A stretch of 64,000 bases of DNA, taken from Candidatus Gemmiger stercoravium. Lineage in GTDB: Bacteria > Bacillota > Clostridia > Oscillospirales > Ruminococcaceae. The translations under genes and the position numbers were made by a program. The notes below the pieces were generated by a model that saw only the letters and a list, made by a program, of their open reading frames with translations, did no database searches and was not told the origin of the DNA. Shown here in pieces: positions 45,732-56,028 of this stretch; within the stretch, counting starts at the first letter, position 1; each line of letters starts with the position of its first letter. The DNA lies in assembly GCA_019119835.1 (NCBI GenBank), contig DWWE01000052.1:1-64000 (forward strand). The letters are read 5' to 3'.

Positions 45732-47297
45732 ATGTCTGTTCCCCACCCCATCGACCCCAGCGCCTGGAAGGCCGAACTGGCCGATTTCCGCCAGGCCACC
45801 GACACCTTCCACGCCGGCGGGCTGGCCAAGGCCGCCTACAAGGGGTTTTCCGGCTATTACGGCAGCTACGCCCAGCGGGACGACGCGGTGAGCATGCTGC
45901 GCCTGCGGATGCCCGCCGGCCGGGTGAACGCCCGGCGGATGGCCTTTGTGGCCGGGGCGCTGCGCCGCCATGACATCCGGCGGCTGCACTTCACCACCTG
46001 CCAGACCATCCAGCTGCACGACCTGCCGCCCCAGGCCCTCTATGAAGTGATGGAGGGCGCGCTGGACGCCGGCATTGCGATCCTGGGCGGCGGCGGGGAC
46101 TACCCCCGCAACGTGATGTGCTCGCCGCTGGCCGGCGCCGACCCGGAGGAATACTTTGACGTGACCCCCTGGGCCGAGGCCGCCGGGGCCTACCTGCTCC
46201 ACTTCGTCCATGCCGAAAAGATGCCCCGCAAGCTGAAGGTGGCCTTCTCCTCCTCCCCGAAGAACCTGCCCCACGCCACCTACCGGGACCTGGGCTTTGC
46301 GGCCCGGCCGGACGGCGCCTTTGACGTGTACAGCGCCGGCGGGCTGGGCGGCAACCCCCGCCTGGGGGTGAAGGTGGCCGAGGCCGTGGCCCCCGACCAG
46401 ATCCTTTACTATATCAAGGCGATGTGGCTGACCTTCCGCACCTGGGGCAACTACGAAAACCGGGCCAAGGCCCGCACCCGCTATATGCAGGACGCCCTGG
46501 GCGGCCCCGAAGCCTACGCCGCCGCCTACCGGGACAAGCTGCGCCAGGTCTATGAGACCGAGGACCTGACCCTGACCGGCGTGACGGCGCCGGCCCTGAC
46601 CAAAACCGGCGCCCCCGACCCGGAGCTGGCCGCCGACCGCCGGGTGCTGGCCCAGAAGCAGAACGGGCTGTACGCCGTGGCCTGGCACCCGCTGGGCGGG
46701 ATGCCCGACCCGGCGGTGTTCTGCGCGGTGAGCGACGCGCTGCAGCAGATGGAGGGGGCCGAGCTGCGCCTGACCCCCGACGAGGGCGCCTGGCTGGTCA
46801 ACCTGACCGCCGAGGAGGCCCGCCGGATGCTGGAACTGACCGCCGGCAACACCGCCGCCAGCCTGTTCGAGACCTCGGTGGCCTGCATCGGCGCCGCCAC
46901 CTGCCAGGTGGGGCTGCGGGATTCCCAGGCGCTGCTGGCCGACTGCGTGGCCGCGGTGCGCCGGGCCGGCCTGCCCGACGGCGCGCTGCCCCAGATCCAC
47001 ATTTCGGGCTGCCCGTCCAGCTGCGGCACCCACCAGACCGGGGCCATCGGCTTCCGGGGGGCGGCCAAGGTCATCGACGGCAAGCCCCTGCCGGCCTTCA
47101 CCCTCTTTGTGGGCGGCTGCGAAGGCCAGGGCCGCGAGGCCATGGGCCGGGAGCTGGGCATCCTGCGGTGGGAGAAGATCCCCGAATTCCTCGTGGCGCT
47201 GGGCCGCGCCGTGGCCGACGCCGGGCAGGACTATGCCGCCTGGTACGCCGCCGACCCCGCCGCCATCGAGGCGATCGCCGCCGAATATCTGGCCTGA
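45732..47297 (+). CDS. Ferredoxin-dependent-type nitrite/sulfite reductase
   Basis: Siroheme/4Fe-4S ligands CIGAATC and GCPSSCG; LHFTTCQTIQLHDL. Confidence 0.9.
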   Translation: MSVPHPIDPSAWKAELADFRQATDTFHAGGLAKAAYKGFSGYYGSYAQRDDAVSMLRLRMPAGRVNARRMAFVAGALRRHDIRRLHFTTCQTIQLHDLPPQALYEVMEGALDAGIAILGGGGDYPRNVMCSPLAGADPEEYFDVTPWAEAAGAYLLHFVHAEKMPRKLKVAFSSSPKNLPHATYRDLGFAARPDGAFDVYSAGGLGGNPRLGVKVAEAVAPDQILYYIKAMWLTFRTWGNYENRAKARTRYMQDALGGPEAYAAAYRDKLRQVYETEDLTLTGVTAPALTKTGAPDPELAADRRVLAQKQNGLYAVAWHPLGGMPDPAVFCAVSDALQQMEGAELRLTPDEGAWLVNLTAEEARRMLELTAGNTAASLFETSVACIGAATCQVGLRDSQALLADCVAAVRRAGLPDGALPQIHISGCPSSCGTHQTGAIGFRGAAKVIDGKPLPAFTLFVGGCEGQGREAMGRELGILRWEKIPEFLVALGRAVADAGQDYAAWYAADPAAIEAIAAEYLA

Positions 47298-49881: not shown

Positions 49882-49954
49882 AGGCTGTATGCTTGGCGTT
49901 TTCTGCTCTTTTGCGGAAAAACGTCCAAAAACCAAGCGAGCAGAAAGGCAGACT

Positions 49955-50824
49955 ATGGCTGATAACAAGCGCCCCGCCGCCGGGGAATGGACCACCGTGA
50001 TCCGGCCGCGCACCGGCTGGTTCGATCTTGATTTGAGGGAGCTCTGGCAGTACCGCGACCTGATCGTGATGTTCGTCAAGCGCAACTTCACCGTTCTGTA
50101 CAAGCAGACGATCCTGGGCCCGGCCTGGATCATCCTGAACCCGCTGATCACCACCGTGCTGTTCAACGTGGTGTTCGGCGGGCTGGCCGGGCTTTCCACC
50201 GACGGCACCCCCTCCTTCCTGTTTTACATGGCGGGCAACACGGTGTGGACCTTCTTTTCCACCTGCATCAACAACACCGCCAACACCTTCGTGGCCAACA
50301 GCCAGGTGTTCGGCAAGGTATACTTTCCCCGCCTGACCACCCCGATCAGCCAGGTGCTGACCAGCCTGATCAATTTCCTGATCCAGTTCGTGATGTTCGC
50401 GCTGTTCTGGGCCGGGTTCGCCCTGTCCGGCGCGCCGCTGCGGCTGACGGCCTGGGTGGCCGCGCTGCCGCTGGTGGTGCTGGAAGTCATGCTGCTGGGC
50501 CTGGGGGTGGGGATCATCGTGTCCAGCCTGACCACCAAGTACCGGGACCTGGCCATCGCCGTGAGCTTCGGCGTGCAGCTGTGGATGTACATTTCCCCGG
50601 TGGTGTACCCGCTGTCCAGCCTGGGGGAAAGCCCCCGGCTGCGGGCGCTGATGCAGCTCAACCCCATGACCGCCCCCATCGAGGTGTTCCGCCTGGCCAC
50701 CCTGGGCAGCGGCACCGTCTCGGCGGGCGGCCTTGCCTACAGCCTGGTGTTCACGCTGGCGGCGCTGGCGGTGGGCGTGGTGCTGTTCAGCCGCATTGAA
50801 AAGACCTTTATGGATACCGTGTAA
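49955..50824 (+). CDS. Polysaccharide/polyol-phosphate ABC exporter permease (Wzm/TagG-like)
   Basis: LWQYRDLIVMFVKRNFTVLYKQTILGPAWIILNPL; NPMTAPIEVFR. Confidence 0.95.
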   Translation: MADNKRPAAGEWTTVIRPRTGWFDLDLRELWQYRDLIVMFVKRNFTVLYKQTILGPAWIILNPLITTVLFNVVFGGLAGLSTDGTPSFLFYMAGNTVWTFFSTCINNTANTFVANSQVFGKVYFPRLTTPISQVLTSLINFLIQFVMFALFWAGFALSGAPLRLTAWVAALPLVVLEVMLLGLGVGIIVSSLTTKYRDLAIAVSFGVQLWMYISPVVYPLSSLGESPRLRALMQLNPMTAPIEVFRLATLGSGTVSAGGLAYSLVFTLAALAVGVVLFSRIEKTFMDTV

Positions 50825-50838
50825 GGGGGGAGCTTTGT

Positions 50839-52131
50839 ATGCACAACGCAGAGGAGCGCCGCCCGGTCATTCAGGTGACCGGGCTGAAAAAGCAGTACAA
50901 GCTCGGCCAGATCGGCGGCGGCACCCTGACCCATGACCTGCAGAGCTGGTGGGCCCGGGTGCGCGGCAAAGAGGACCCCAACACCGTCATCGGCACCGAT
51001 GCGCGGCTGTTCGGCCAGACCTTCATGGCCCTCAACGGCGTGGACCTGACGGTGTACCAGGGCGAGGCGCTGGGCATCATCGGGCGCAACGGCGCCGGCA
51101 AGAGCACCCTGCTCAAGATCCTGTCCCGCATCACCGCCCCCACCGAAGGGGAGATCCGCCTGCGCGGGCGGGTGGCCAGCATGCTGGAGGTGGGCACCGG
51201 CTTCAACAACGAGATGACCGGGCGGGAAAACATCTATATGAACGGCGCGATCCTGGGCATGACCAAGGCCGAGGTAGACGCCAAGCTGGACCAGATCATC
51301 GAGTTTTCCGAATGCGGGGAGTTCATCGACACCCCGGTCAAGCGGTATTCCAGCGGCATGTTCGTCAAGCTGGCCTTCGCGGTGGCCGCCCATCTCGACT
51401 CCGAGATCATGGTCATGGACGAGGTGCTGGCGGTGGGCGACATGAAGTTCCAGCAGAAGTGCCTGGGGAAGATGAGCGACGTGGCCGGCCAGGAGGGCCG
51501 CACCGTCCTGTATGTCAGCCACAACATGAGCACGATCCGCCAGCTGTGTACCCGCTGCATCGTGCTGGACAAGGGCCGGGTGATCTTTGACGGGGATGTG
51601 GAAAAGGCCATCGCCGTGTATATGGAGACCACCGACGTGAACGTGGTCCACTACGACCTGACCAGCGTGTCCCGCATGACCGGCTCGGCCGGCAAACGGC
51701 TGCGGCTGGAAACGCTGGATTTTGTGGACAAGGAATCCAGCGTCTTTGCCGACGACGAGCCGATGCGGGTGCGCATCACCTGGCGGGTGTCCGAACCCTT
51801 TGCCGGGGTGAACATGAAGCTCAACCTGCATTACCGGGACTCCACGCCGGTGGGCATCACCCATCCGGTGGACCTGGGCCCCGCGGTGCCGGGGCGGCTT
51901 TATACCACCGAGTTTTCCTTCGACCCGTCCCTTCTGGGGGAGGGACAGTATTTCTTCTACCTGGACATCTTTGACGGGGCGCTGGCCCAGGCGGTCTGCC
52001 TGGACAAGCCGGTGACCGAGTTTGCCTTTGAGGTGACCAACAGCGACCTGTCCATGCCCGAATGGGCCGCCGGCTGGGGGCGGGTCCACTTCCCCGCCGT
52101 CAAGCTGCTGGCCGGCGGCGCGGAGGGCTGA
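50839..52131 (+). CDS. Polysaccharide ABC exporter ATPase with C-terminal Wzt-like domain
   Basis: GRNGAGKSTLLKILSRITAPTEG; VKRYSSGMFVKLAFAVAAHLDSEIMVMDEVLAVGD; ~180-aa beta-rich C-terminal extension. Confidence 0.93.
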   Translation: MHNAEERRPVIQVTGLKKQYKLGQIGGGTLTHDLQSWWARVRGKEDPNTVIGTDARLFGQTFMALNGVDLTVYQGEALGIIGRNGAGKSTLLKILSRITAPTEGEIRLRGRVASMLEVGTGFNNEMTGRENIYMNGAILGMTKAEVDAKLDQIIEFSECGEFIDTPVKRYSSGMFVKLAFAVAAHLDSEIMVMDEVLAVGDMKFQQKCLGKMSDVAGQEGRTVLYVSHNMSTIRQLCTRCIVLDKGRVIFDGDVEKAIAVYMETTDVNVVHYDLTSVSRMTGSAGKRLRLETLDFVDKESSVFADDEPMRVRITWRVSEPFAGVNMKLNLHYRDSTPVGITHPVDLGPAVPGRLYTTEFSFDPSLLGEGQYFFYLDIFDGALAQAVCLDKPVTEFAFEVTNSDLSMPEWAAGWGRVHFPAVKLLAGGAEG

Positions 52132-52134
52132 GGG

Positions 52135-53130
52135 ATGGACAGACCGGATCTTTACATCTGCCACACCGCCTACCACCTGCTGATCGCCCTGCTGCGGGCG
52201 CGGCGGGCCGGCGGCCCCCAGGAAGTCTGGCTGAGCGAGGAGATCCCCGACGCCGAGGCCCTGGCCGCCTGCCCCGGTGTGGCGGAGGTTTTCGCCTGCG
52301 CCCGGGTGCTGCATGAGTCCCGCTGGCCGGGCGTCGTGACCGGGCCCTTCGCCCACCGCCGCAACCGCCGCGCCTACGAGAAGGCCGGCGCCGGCCCGGC
52401 GCTGCGCCGGGGCGGCTACCGCAGCATCTACATCTGCAACGACTGGAGCGCCGCCGGGCGCTACCTGCAGGACTGCGGGGCGCCCTACATTCTCTGCGAG
52501 GATACGGTGGGCGGCACCCTGGACCCGGACCAGCACCTGCTGGAAGCCCAGCGCGCCGCGCCGGACTTTGCCGAGCGCCGCAAGGGCCGGGGCTACCTGT
52601 ACTGGGGCGACAGCCCCTGGTGCCGGGCGGTGGAAAGCGAGGACGCGGCCCGCTGCAGGATCTTCCCCCGGGAAAAGCTCGTGACCTTTTCCAAACAGGC
52701 GCTGCTGGAAAGCCTGACCCCGGCGGAGAAGGCGGCGGTGCGCCGGGTCTTTCTGACCCGGCCGCTGCCCGACGACCCCGCCGCCCTGGCCGACGCCACC
52801 CTGCTTTTGCCCCGCAGCTTTGTGGCCGACGGGCTGATGGACCAGCCCACCCAGGACCGGATGTTCCGGGCCGTGGCCCGGCGGTATGCCGACGGGCCGC
52901 TGTTCATCAAGACCCACCCACGGGACCCCACCGACTACGGGGCGCTGTTCCCCGGCGCCGTGGTGCTGCAGCGCACCATGCCCAGCGAGGTGCTGAACTT
53001 CTGCCTGCCGGGGAAATTCAAGCGGGCCGTGACGGTGCAGAGCTGGGTGCTGCGGGGCTTTACCGCCGCCGAGAGCTGCGTCTTCCTTTCGCTGGAGGAG
53101 GCCCTGGCCCTGGCGGAAGGCCGGCAGTGA
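52135..53130 (+). CDS. Candidate sialyltransferase/GT52-like glycosyltransferase (CMP-ulosonate user?)
   Basis: LYICHTAYHLLIALL start; LFIKTHPRDPTDYGALFPGAVVL; MPSEVLNFCLPGKFKRAVTVQS. Confidence 0.6.
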   Translation: MDRPDLYICHTAYHLLIALLRARRAGGPQEVWLSEEIPDAEALAACPGVAEVFACARVLHESRWPGVVTGPFAHRRNRRAYEKAGAGPALRRGGYRSIYICNDWSAAGRYLQDCGAPYILCEDTVGGTLDPDQHLLEAQRAAPDFAERRKGRGYLYWGDSPWCRAVESEDAARCRIFPREKLVTFSKQALLESLTPAEKAAVRRVFLTRPLPDDPAALADATLLLPRSFVADGLMDQPTQDRMFRAVARRYADGPLFIKTHPRDPTDYGALFPGAVVLQRTMPSEVLNFCLPGKFKRAVTVQSWVLRGFTAAESCVFLSLEEALALAEGRQ

Positions 53131-53184
53131 GCCGGCGCCCCGCCCTTTGCCCATCAACAACGAGCATACAATCGAGGTGTAGCC

Positions 53185-53916
53185 ATGAAAACCATCGCTG
53201 TGATCCCGGCGCGGTATCAGAGTTCCCGGATGCCGGGCAAGCCGCTGGCCGATATTCTGGGCCGGCCGATGATCTGGTGGGTGTATGAGGAGGCCAGAAA
53301 GTGCCCCGCACTGGACGGCGTGCTCATTGCCACCGACGACGAGCGGATCGCCGAAGTCTGCCGGCGCTACGGCATGGACTGGGAGATGACCAGCCCCGAC
53401 CACGACACCCCCACCGGCCGCATCTGGGAGGTGAGCACCCGGGTGGAGGCCGACCTCTACCTGCAGGTGATGGGGGACGAGCCGCTCATCGACGCCCGGG
53501 CCTTCGACCTGATCCTGCCGGCGCAGGCCCCCGCCGACCCGTACTATGTGGCGGTGCTCACCAACGTGATGACCCACCCGGCGGATGTGATCGACTTTTC
53601 CAACCAGAAGGTGGTGACCAATGCGGCGCGGGAGGTCCTGATGATCTCCCGCAGCCCCATCCCCTACCCCAAAGGCACGCTGGACTTTGAGTACGAGAAG
53701 GTCACCGGCATCCAGCTGTACAGCCGCCAGGCGCTGGCCTTCTACCACGACACCCCCAAGTCGCTGCTGGAAAAGGCCGAGGAAAACGACATGATGCGGT
53801 TTGTGGAGAACGGGCACACGGTCCATGCGATCCGGAGCCCGTACAAGACGGTCAGCGTGGACACCCCCAAGGACCTGGAGCTGGTGCGCGAGACCCTGCG
53901 CCAGCGCCGCGGCTGA
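53185..53916 (+). CDS. KdsB-like CMP-ulosonate (Kdo/acylneuraminate-type) cytidylyltransferase
   Basis: IPARYQSSRMPGKPLADILGRPMIWWVYE, IATDDERIAEV, VMGDEPLIDA, VSVDTPKDLELVRE. Confidence 0.88.
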   Translation: MKTIAVIPARYQSSRMPGKPLADILGRPMIWWVYEEARKCPALDGVLIATDDERIAEVCRRYGMDWEMTSPDHDTPTGRIWEVSTRVEADLYLQVMGDEPLIDARAFDLILPAQAPADPYYVAVLTNVMTHPADVIDFSNQKVVTNAAREVLMISRSPIPYPKGTLDFEYEKVTGIQLYSRQALAFYHDTPKSLLEKAEENDMMRFVENGHTVHAIRSPYKTVSVDTPKDLELVRETLRQRRG

Positions 53917-53947
53917 CCCTACACCTGACCCCGAAGGAGACAACACC

Positions 53948-55525
53948 ATGGGAAATGTAAAACTGTTGGACTGCACCCTGCGGGACGGCGGCTATGTGAA
54001 CGACTGGCGCTGGGGGTTCGGCGCGGCGCGGGACATCGTCGCCACCCTGACCCGCGCCGGCGCCGACATCGTGGAGGTGGGCTTTCTGCGCAATGTGGAA
54101 GGCTACGACCCCGACGTGACGGTCTGCCGCCGCATCGAGGAGCTCAACCGCCTGCTGCCCGCCGGCCGCGGGCGGACGATGTATGCCGGCATGGCCATGC
54201 GCTCCAACTACGACATCGCCCAGCTTTCCCCCTATGCGGGCGAGGGCATCGAGCTGATCCGCATCACCGCCCACGACTATGACATCCGGGAGGGGATGGA
54301 TTTCGCCCGGGAGGTCCAGGCCCGGGGGTACAAGCTGTCCATCAACCCCATCAACATCATGGGCTATGCCGACCGGGACATCCTGTGGATCCTTGACCAG
54401 GTCAACGCCATCCGCCCCTACCAGTTCTCCATCGTGGACACCTTCGGCAGCATGCGCCGCCGGGACCTGGAGCGCATCCTGAGCCTGGTGGACCACAACC
54501 TTGACCCGGCCATCCGGGTGGGGCTGCACCTGCACGAAAACATGGCGCTGAGCTTCTGCCTGGCCCAGGAGTTTGTGGACAAGCACCTGCGCAGGGACAT
54601 CACGGTGGACGCCAGCCTGCTGGGGATGGGGCGCATCCCCGGCAACCTGCCCATCGAGCTGATGGCCGACTACCTCAACGACACGCTGGGCGCCCGCTAT
54701 GACATCGACGAGCTGATGGACGCCATCCAGGACCACATCGCCCCCCTCAAGGGGGACACGGCCTGGGGGTATACGCCGGCCTACTTCCTGTCGGCCCGGT
54801 ACAACCTGCACCGCAACTATGCCGAGCATTACCTGGCCAAAGGGGACCTGACCAACCGGGACATCAACCACATCCTGGCCGGGCTGGACCGGGCCAAGGC
54901 CACCGCCTTCGACGCCGCCTACGCCGACCGCCTGTACCGGGACTACCAGAGCCGCCATGTGGACGACGAAGCCGCCATGCAGGCGCTGCGCACCGCCTTT
55001 GGCGGCAAGCGGGTGCTGGTGCTGGCCCCGGGCGCCAGCCTTGGCACCGAGGCCGGCCGGGCCGCCGTGGCCGGGGCCGGGGCGGATGTCTGCGTTTCGG
55101 CCAACTTCTGCCCGGATTTCTGCCGGCCGGACTACGCCTTTTTCTCCAGCAGCAAGCGGTTTGACAAGGTGGACCCGGCGGCTTTGCCCTGCCCGGCCAT
55201 CCTGACCAGCAACCTGCACGCCGCGCCGGACACCGCCCGGGTGGTCAACTACGACCGGCTGGCCGGCGACGACGCCCAGGCCGGCAACAGCGTGCTGATG
55301 CTGCTGCGGCTGCTGCGGCTGTGCGGCGCCCGCCAGGCGCTGCTGGCCGGCGCCGACGGCTACCGCCCCGGCGCCCGGGCCTATGCCGACAGCAGCCTGC
55401 ACACCCACACCGACCGGGGCGCCGCCTACAACGCCCAGGTGGGCGCGGCGATGCGCAGCATCGCCGGCGGGCTGCCGCTGCAGTTTGTGACCCCCAGCGA
55501 GTACGCCAAGGAGGCGGGGCTATGA
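53948..55525 (+). CDS. HMGL-like (DmpG-type TIM barrel) aldolase with ~180-aa C-terminal Rossmann-like domain
   Basis: LLDCTLRDGGYVNDWRWG, VEVGFLRN, VDTFGSM, GLHLHENMALS; C-term GKRVLVLAPGASLG...PDYAFFSSSKR. Confidence 0.85.
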   Translation: MGNVKLLDCTLRDGGYVNDWRWGFGAARDIVATLTRAGADIVEVGFLRNVEGYDPDVTVCRRIEELNRLLPAGRGRTMYAGMAMRSNYDIAQLSPYAGEGIELIRITAHDYDIREGMDFAREVQARGYKLSINPINIMGYADRDILWILDQVNAIRPYQFSIVDTFGSMRRRDLERILSLVDHNLDPAIRVGLHLHENMALSFCLAQEFVDKHLRRDITVDASLLGMGRIPGNLPIELMADYLNDTLGARYDIDELMDAIQDHIAPLKGDTAWGYTPAYFLSARYNLHRNYAEHYLAKGDLTNRDINHILAGLDRAKATAFDAAYADRLYRDYQSRHVDDEAAMQALRTAFGGKRVLVLAPGASLGTEAGRAAVAGAGADVCVSANFCPDFCRPDYAFFSSSKRFDKVDPAALPCPAILTSNLHAAPDTARVVNYDRLAGDDAQAGNSVLMLLRLLRLCGARQALLAGADGYRPGARAYADSSLHTHTDRGAAYNAQVGAAMRSIAGGLPLQFVTPSEYAKEAGL

Positions 55526-56028
55526 TCCGGCTGCTGGTGCTGGACGTGGACGGCACGATGACCGACGGCGGCGTGTACTACGACGGCGCCGGCAACGAGA
55601 TGAAGAAATTTGCCATCAAGGACGGCGCCGGGCTGGTGCTGGCCCGGGCGGCCGGGCTGCAGGTGATGATCTGCACCGGGCGGGCCAGCGAGGCGGTGCG
55701 CCGCCGGGCCGAAGAGCTCAAGGTGACCTACCTGTACCAGGGCGTGGCGGACAAAGCCGCGTTCCTGCGCGGGTTCCTGACCGAGCAGGGCCTGCGGCGG
55801 GAGGAGGTCGCCTACTGCGGCGACGACCTGAACGACCTGGCCGCCATGGCGCTGTGCGGGTTTGTGACCTGCCCGGCCGACGCGACCCCCGCCGTGGCCC
55901 GCCGGGCCGACTACCGCTGCCCCCGCCGGGGCGGCGAGGGCGCGGTGCGGGATGCGGTGGAGGAGATCCTGCGCCGCGACGGCCGCCTGGCCGATGCGGC
56001 GCGGAAGGCTTTTGACGCCGAGCTGTGA
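55522..56028 (+). CDS. KdsC-like HAD phosphatase (3-deoxy-ulosonate-8/9-phosphate phosphatase family)
   Basis: LDVDGTMTDGGVYYD, FAIKDGAGLVLARAAGLQVMICTGRAS, YCGDDLNDLAAM; ATGA overlap with aldolase. Confidence 0.92.
   Translation: MIRLLVLDVDGTMTDGGVYYDGAGNEMKKFAIKDGAGLVLARAAGLQVMICTGRASEAVRRRAEELKVTYLYQGVADKAAFLRGFLTEQGLRREEVAYCGDDLNDLAAMALCGFVTCPADATPAVARRADYRCPRRGGEGAVRDAVEEILRRDGRLADAARKAFDAEL

Follow-up and report, generated by a model that had tools for sequence, protein, structure and literature searches.

Here we describe a group of genes in a 64,000-nucleotide stretch (hereafter the window; positions 1 to 64,000 of contig DWWE01000052.1, assembly GCA_019119835.1) from Candidatus Gemmiger stercoravium, which is contig C4 in a draft genome of 2.36 Mb and 93% completeness. 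Three adjacent genes in the window code for a KdsB-like cytidylyltransferase, an aldolase fusion protein and a KdsC-like phosphatase, and this kdsB–aldolase–kdsC module probably makes a 3-deoxy-2-ulosonate activated with cytidine monophosphate (CMP) without the help of a phosphoenolpyruvate (PEP)-dependent synthase. To our knowledge, a PEP-dependent synthase of the KdsA or NeuB type is part of every described biosynthetic route to the CMP-activated forms of 3-deoxy-D-manno-octulosonic acid (Kdo), ketodeoxynonulosonic acid (KDN) and sialic, legionaminic and pseudaminic acids. Missing genes of this type are commonly taken to mean that the sugar class itself is missing.

KdsA, KdsD and the aldolase gene

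Neither KdsA nor NeuB is encoded in the window, as an earlier note on this DNA had observed. KdsA could be ruled out elsewhere in the genome too: the best match to the KdsA model TIGR01362 (108 bits; cut-off 314) is a 3-deoxy-D-arabino-heptulosonate 7-phosphate (DAHP) synthase, and both DAHP_synth_1 matches are DAHP synthases. A genome-wide search for the arabinose-5-phosphate isomerase KdsD (TIGR00393) gave no match at E ≤ 1e-20.

Among 295 genomes sampled at the order level, KdsB was found in 17, the full-length aldolase in 17 and both in 12, where about one would be expected (p = 5e-14), and the class-level sample gave 8/10 (p = 4e-9); these p-values ignore phylogeny and are overstated, many of the genomes being metagenome-assembled and the loci phylogenetically related. 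The order and class samples (the class being Clostridia) together contain 23 genomes with KdsB, 16 of which have the aldolase, four KdsA, three neither and none both. Three of the KdsA genomes, all from the order of the window genome (L155, L156 and L157), carry a kdsB–kdsA–kdsD–kdsC operon with a true KdsA (397–422 bits) and a KdsD of the KpsF/GutQ family, so that KdsA–KdsD fills the exact slot between kdsB and kdsC that is otherwise taken by the aldolase. These clusters are probably the classical Kdo pathway among the relatives of the window genome. Their KdsBs nest within the tree of the aldolase-linked KdsBs, and therefore the partner synthase appears to have been exchanged. KdsD was found in 7/7 KdsA genomes tested and scored above its family cut-off in 0/41 aldolase genomes that lack KdsA. 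Thus, the aldolase seems to replace the synthase and the isomerase together. Because KdsD is missing, the usual route from arabinose-5-phosphate is unlikely, and the aldehyde used by the aldolase is probably not KdsD-derived arabinose-5-phosphate.

KdsA is encoded in five of the 64 aldolase genomes and NeuB in 16, with neither of them in 45; in these 45, judging from gene content, no other source is known from which the module's CMP-sugar synthetase could obtain a ulosonate. The proposal of the earlier note that the aldolase stands in for a PEP-dependent synthase is thus supported by gene adjacency, the exclusion of KdsA, the KdsA–KdsD slot replacement and the absence of both KdsA and NeuB from most module genomes.

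Gene neighbourhoods were surveyed in 98 loci with 100 aldolase copies. A PF02348 cytidylyltransferase lies within 200 bp of 76 copies (47 of the KdsB type and 29 of a second, PseF-like type) and within 3 kb of 83; 54 copies have a phosphatase within the latter distance (KdsC in 36 cases, HAD_2 in 18), and genes of the polysialyltransferase or GT52 kind, as well as exporters, are found repeatedly around the aldolase loci. The second cytidylyltransferase type, a PF02348 protein of ∼224 aa with a weak resemblance to PseF and no match in NCBIfam at E ≤ 1e-20, replaces KdsB beside the aldolase in L129 (7324–7995) and about 30 other loci, a pairing that suggests a parallel set of CMP-sugars. In L043 (10758–11783) and L105 (9590–10615), the place of the phosphatase right after kdsB–aldolase is occupied by a pfkB-family gene resembling 2-keto-3-deoxygluconate (KDG) kinase.

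The nearest loci elsewhere are those of Gemmiger species, Gemmiger formicilis ATCC 27749 among them (aldolase identity 74–82%). The three-gene core is also found on an alphaproteobacterial plasmid, that of Leisingera caerulea (NZ_CP081095.1, locus L165, 7001–10003; a 537-aa aldolase, kdsB and a HAD hydrolase), and in genomes that carry the labels Akkermansia or Spirochaetaceae, and because of this distribution we consider that the module probably travels horizontally. The earlier idea of a new Gram-positive sugar route needs correction: Kdo genes have already been reported in the Gram-positive Bacillus coahuilensis (PMC4744853), KdsA–KdsD–KdsC clusters occur in relatives of the window genome, and the Leisingera plasmid comes from a Gram-negative host. 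By its gene distribution, the aldolase module is not a Gram-positive speciality.

Layout of the locus and properties of the enzymes

The four genes that the earlier note had recognized as contiguous are indeed intact and co-directional within positions 52135–56028, with domain assignments from profile searches, and directly follow the genes of a Wzm/Wzt-type exporter of the ATP-binding cassette (ABC) class:

49889..50824, + strand, ABC-2 permease of a Wzm-like polysaccharide exporter (PF01061, E = 7.5e-18)
50839..52131, + strand, ABC ATPase of a polysaccharide exporter, its C-terminal region Wzt-like (PF00005, E = 8.2e-23; a weak match to Wzt_C, E = 8e-4)
52135..53130, + strand, putative sialyltransferase-like glycosyltransferase (HP motif; GT52 PF07922, below cut-off)
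53185..53916, + strand, KdsB-family CMP-ulosonate synthetase (PF02348, E = 3.6e-38; PRK05450.1-5; PDB 1gq9)
53948..55525, + strand, aldolase, whole open reading frame (ORF) of 525 residues (PF00682, E = 1.9e-14)
53948..54847, + strand, N-terminal HMGL/DRE-TIM pyruvate-aldolase domain of the aldolase, residues 1–300 (PF00682, 3dxi, 8ih7, 1nvm)
54965..55522, + strand, C-terminal domain of the aldolase with a predicted sialyltransferase fold (Maf/GT29/GT42/MptE-like), residues ∼340–525 (AlphaFold2, Foldseek)
55522..56028, + strand, KdsC/YrbI-family C0 HAD phosphatase (TIGR01670; PDB 3e81)

The start of the KdsC-like gene overlaps the aldolase stop codon (ATGA). The module is surrounded by a long run of glycosyltransferase genes, amid which a nitrite/sulfite-reductase-like ORF (45732–47297), recognized by eye, seems out of place.

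The aldolase is a two-domain fusion whose ∼185 additional C-terminal residues had been overlooked in the earlier note. In PDB searches, its N-terminal barrel is closest to the putative aldolase 3dxi from Bacteroides (E = 5.5e-21), followed by the DmpG-type enzymes 8ih7 and 1nvm, and its TIM barrel, Arg-Asp pair (RDG) and HxH metal ligands place it among the DRE-TIM metallolyases. R12, D13, H194 and H196 are invariant across 19 homologues; from the roles of the corresponding residues in DmpG, we take R12 to be the enolate-binding Arg and D13/H194/H196 the Asp-His-His metal site. The protein scored 62.5 bits with the 4-hydroxy-2-oxovalerate aldolase equivalog TIGR03217, far below its cut-off of 286.

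As the barrel dominated the Foldseek search with the whole aldolase (matches to 3dxi and 1nvm), the C-terminal domain was modelled and searched separately. The AlphaFold2 model (pLDDT, the predicted local distance difference test, of 95.6) matched 5bo9, 5mu5, 2wml, 8sd5 and 2p2v, with probabilities of 0.98–1.0 for 5bo9, 5mu5, 2wml and 2p2v and moderate TM-scores on the query (0.49–0.57); the best PDB folds were ST8SiaIII, Maf, ST3Gal-I, an MptE-type HPPK and Cst-I. Pfam agreed weakly, with MptE-like matches in 22/80 and CST-I matches in 3/80 homologues. Matches to D-lyxose isomerase in 7/80 of the C-terminal domains were taken as chance, the fold not being a cupin. The modelled domain can be assigned a sialyltransferase (GT29/GT42/Maf) fold with high confidence. 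Nonulosonates are the sugars transferred by Maf enzymes. The Maf of C. botulinum can accept CMP-Kdo (PMC11339370). By analogy with these enzymes, a CMP-ulosonate is a plausible ligand of the C-terminal domain. A possible split form, with a short aldolase and a separate MptE-like protein, was seen in G293 (L056), and L020 has an upstream GPSL-type ORF; no split form was seen in L085 or L087.

The KdsB-like protein belongs to the KdsB superfamily by its CTP_transf_3 domain, its loop for cytidine triphosphate (CTP; IPARxxSxRxxGKP) and the two Mg-binding Asp residues of its GDEP and VDT motifs (the Mg ligands of A. aeolicus KdsB are D95 and D219; PMC3149649). It scored 213 bits with PRK05450.1-5 (cut-off 193) but only 115.7 bits with the kdsB equivalog TIGR00466 (cut-off 155.2), a cut-off that the KdsB of a KdsA-linked relative likewise failed to reach (113.9 bits). 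Its best PDB match is E. coli KpsU (1gq9, E = 5.6e-47). An alignment of 65 sequences showed that the CTP loop and the GDEP and VDT Asp residues are retained, whereas the sugar side has diverged: the window protein has MTSPDHDTPTGRIWEV and VMGDEP where E. coli KpsU has MTRNDHESGTDRLVEV and LQGDEP, so that the departure from the E. coli motif pointed out in the earlier note is real. KdsBs vary at this sugar-side position (xQGDEP, xNGDEP or xMGDEP), and in this alignment the xMGDEP form, that of the window, is limited to the Gemmiger group plus a small number of relatives. The varied sugar side, the varied phosphatases and the KDG-kinase-like gene suggest that several different ulosonates are made, not one.

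The phosphatase is a C0 HAD enzyme of the KdsC/YrbI family, with a TIGR01670 score of 136.2 bits (cut-off 106.95) and the DxDG active-site motif in the form LDVDGT. Its PDB matches include KDN-9-phosphate phosphatase (3e81, E = 1.4e-37) and KdsC structures, but it fell below the cut-offs of both the Kdo-8-phosphate phosphatase equivalog PRK09484 (143 bits vs 208) and the KDN-9-phosphate phosphatase model (149.9 vs 180).

The label of the glycosyltransferase gene rests on weak homology (GT52, 16.7 bits against a cut-off of 26.1) and on its HP motif (KTH261P262RD; HPRD is invariant in the family, 11 homologues). It matches the HP motif defined for the sialyltransferases of GT38, GT52 and GT80 (PMC2169525); at the position of the D/E-D/E-G motif of the GT52/GT38 enzymes, the window protein has EDT, not a sequence ending in G. 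A search with its profile found no solved relative.

Proposed pathway and its alternatives

In the pathway that we propose, the metal-dependent DRE-TIM barrel would form the enolate of pyruvate and join it to an aldose that probably carries a phosphate. The phosphate would be removed by the KdsC-like phosphatase (an HAD_2 phosphatase in other genomes), and the KdsB-like enzyme would form the CMP-ulosonate. This could be used by the GT52/polysialyltransferase-like enzymes, and perhaps also by the sialyltransferase-fold domain of the aldolase, and the ulosonate-containing polysaccharide would be exported via Wzm/Wzt. The proposal draws on which genes are present and how their domains are arranged, on the conservation of catalytic and metal-binding residues, on linkage and on the KdsA–KdsD replacement, from which we infer the direction of the aldolase reaction, its aldehyde partner and product, the transfer step and what the C-terminal domain does. 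A bolder version, which we regard as tentative and rather doubtful, is that the fused protein is both an ulosonate synthase and a CMP-ulosonate-binding enzyme: its barrel would build a previously undescribed 3-deoxy-2-ulosonate, its sialyltransferase-fold domain would transfer the sugar or sense the CMP-sugar, and the PEP-independent pathway family would extend across Firmicutes, Gastranaerophilales, Akkermansia, spirochaetes and alphaproteobacteria.

Besides the relatedness of the sampled loci, several points weigh against a biosynthetic role of the module. The alignment places Tyr16 where DmpG (1nvm) has its catalytic His; we found no assay of any enzyme in this aldolase subfamily; about half of the aldolase copies have no phosphatase nearby; and cleavage, the reverse reaction, is thermodynamically possible, as it is for NanA. 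Since a cytidylyltransferase is missing from the surroundings of the aldolase in ten loci, several of which have a thiamine pyrophosphate (TPP) enzyme and DegT instead, the family, by its gene neighbourhoods, is not tied to CMP-sugars alone. Such loci include L055, L099, L114, L117, L120 and L128, several with the gene of an acetolactate-synthase-like TPP enzyme and a DegT aminotransferase beside the aldolase, and possibly belong to a different branched- or amino-sugar pathway. These loci, and the fact that the nearest solved relatives of known function are catabolic DmpG-type aldolases, would fit an aldolase that cleaves its substrate or serves another branch of polysaccharide sugar modification, with an indirect link to the cytidylyltransferase. 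We consider this very unlikely, because the KdsB-like enzyme would then be left without a known substrate source in most genomes and because KdsA–KdsD is replaced so exactly.

The genome that carries the module also holds a NeuB (TIGR03569, 457 bits), on contig C119, and is itself an incomplete draft. The earlier note had named kdsA/kdsD or neuB genes elsewhere in the genome as a possible source of the sugar; KdsA and KdsD are absent, whereas NeuB is present, in a separate locus of legionaminate type. A NeuB is found in every Gemmiger-group genome tested, and the KdsB-like enzyme and the glycosyltransferase might use its nonulosonate, the aldolase being unrelated or a supplier of precursor. 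However, the C119 locus (L037, 3596–10958) encodes a LegC-family aminotransferase, a CBS-containing sugar-1-phosphate nucleotidyltransferase, NeuB, a NeuC-like epimerase, two Gfo/Idh-like oxidoreductases and a cytidylyltransferase, apparently a complete and self-contained legionaminate-type set, and most other module genomes have no NeuB. We therefore rejected this NeuB as a sufficient explanation and regard its involvement as the least probable of the alternatives.

The product could also be ordinary Kdo, with the aldolase joining pyruvate and D-arabinose (or its 5-phosphate) to give Kdo (or Kdo-8-phosphate), so that the enzyme would be new and the sugar not. The nesting of KdsA-linked KdsBs among aldolase-linked ones, the retention of a KdsC-like phosphatase and the KdsA–KdsD pair in the aldolase slot of relatives all agree with this. 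The lack of KdsD in the aldolase genomes without KdsA, the wide variation of KdsB sugar-side residues and their difference from KpsU, and the use of several phosphatase types, which suggests several sugars, make it unlikely, though less so than the other two alternatives.

Comparison with known systems

What is new here, and supported by the gene data, is a probable PEP-independent biosynthesis of CMP-ulosonates built on an unusual aldolase fusion; no description of such a route was found in the openly licensed literature, which is weak evidence of novelty. If confirmed, it would be a second route to the class of Kdo- or sialic-acid-like sugars, present in a Gemmiger-like gut bacterium and, sporadically, in its relatives from several phyla. 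Current genome surveys would then overlook such acidic sugars, particularly in common gut Firmicutes, and the aldolase could point to undescribed sugars. Three small soluble enzymes would be enough to test the route directly.

The module shares KdsB- and KdsC-family enzymes with the canonical Kdo pathway (KdsD–KdsA–KdsC–KdsB), and close relatives have the same gene order around the synthase, but it lacks KdsA and KdsD and has in their place a fusion of an HMGL aldolase with a sialyltransferase-fold domain. The pathways with NeuB, PseI or LegI and NeuA likewise lead to a 3-deoxy-2-ulosonate in CMP-activated form, the substrate of sialyltransferase-like enzymes, whereas most module genomes have no NeuB-type synthase and that of the window genome belongs to a separate locus. 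With the DRE-TIM metallolyases DmpG, BphI and MhpE the aldolase has in common the TIM barrel, the Asp/His/His metal site and the enolate-stabilizing Arg; it differs in its TLRDGGY motif (TLRDGMH in those enzymes), in lacking a dehydrogenase partner and in its added C-terminal domain. The putative aldolase 3dxi of Bacteroides vulgatus, from structural genomics, is the closest solved structure and shares the LDCTLRDGGY motif, but it covers only the N-terminal domain and has no assigned function. Finally, the predicted structure of the C-terminal domain has the fold of the Maf flagellin glycosyltransferases, GT42 Cst, GT29 and MptE, with the difference that in the window this domain is fused to an aldolase.

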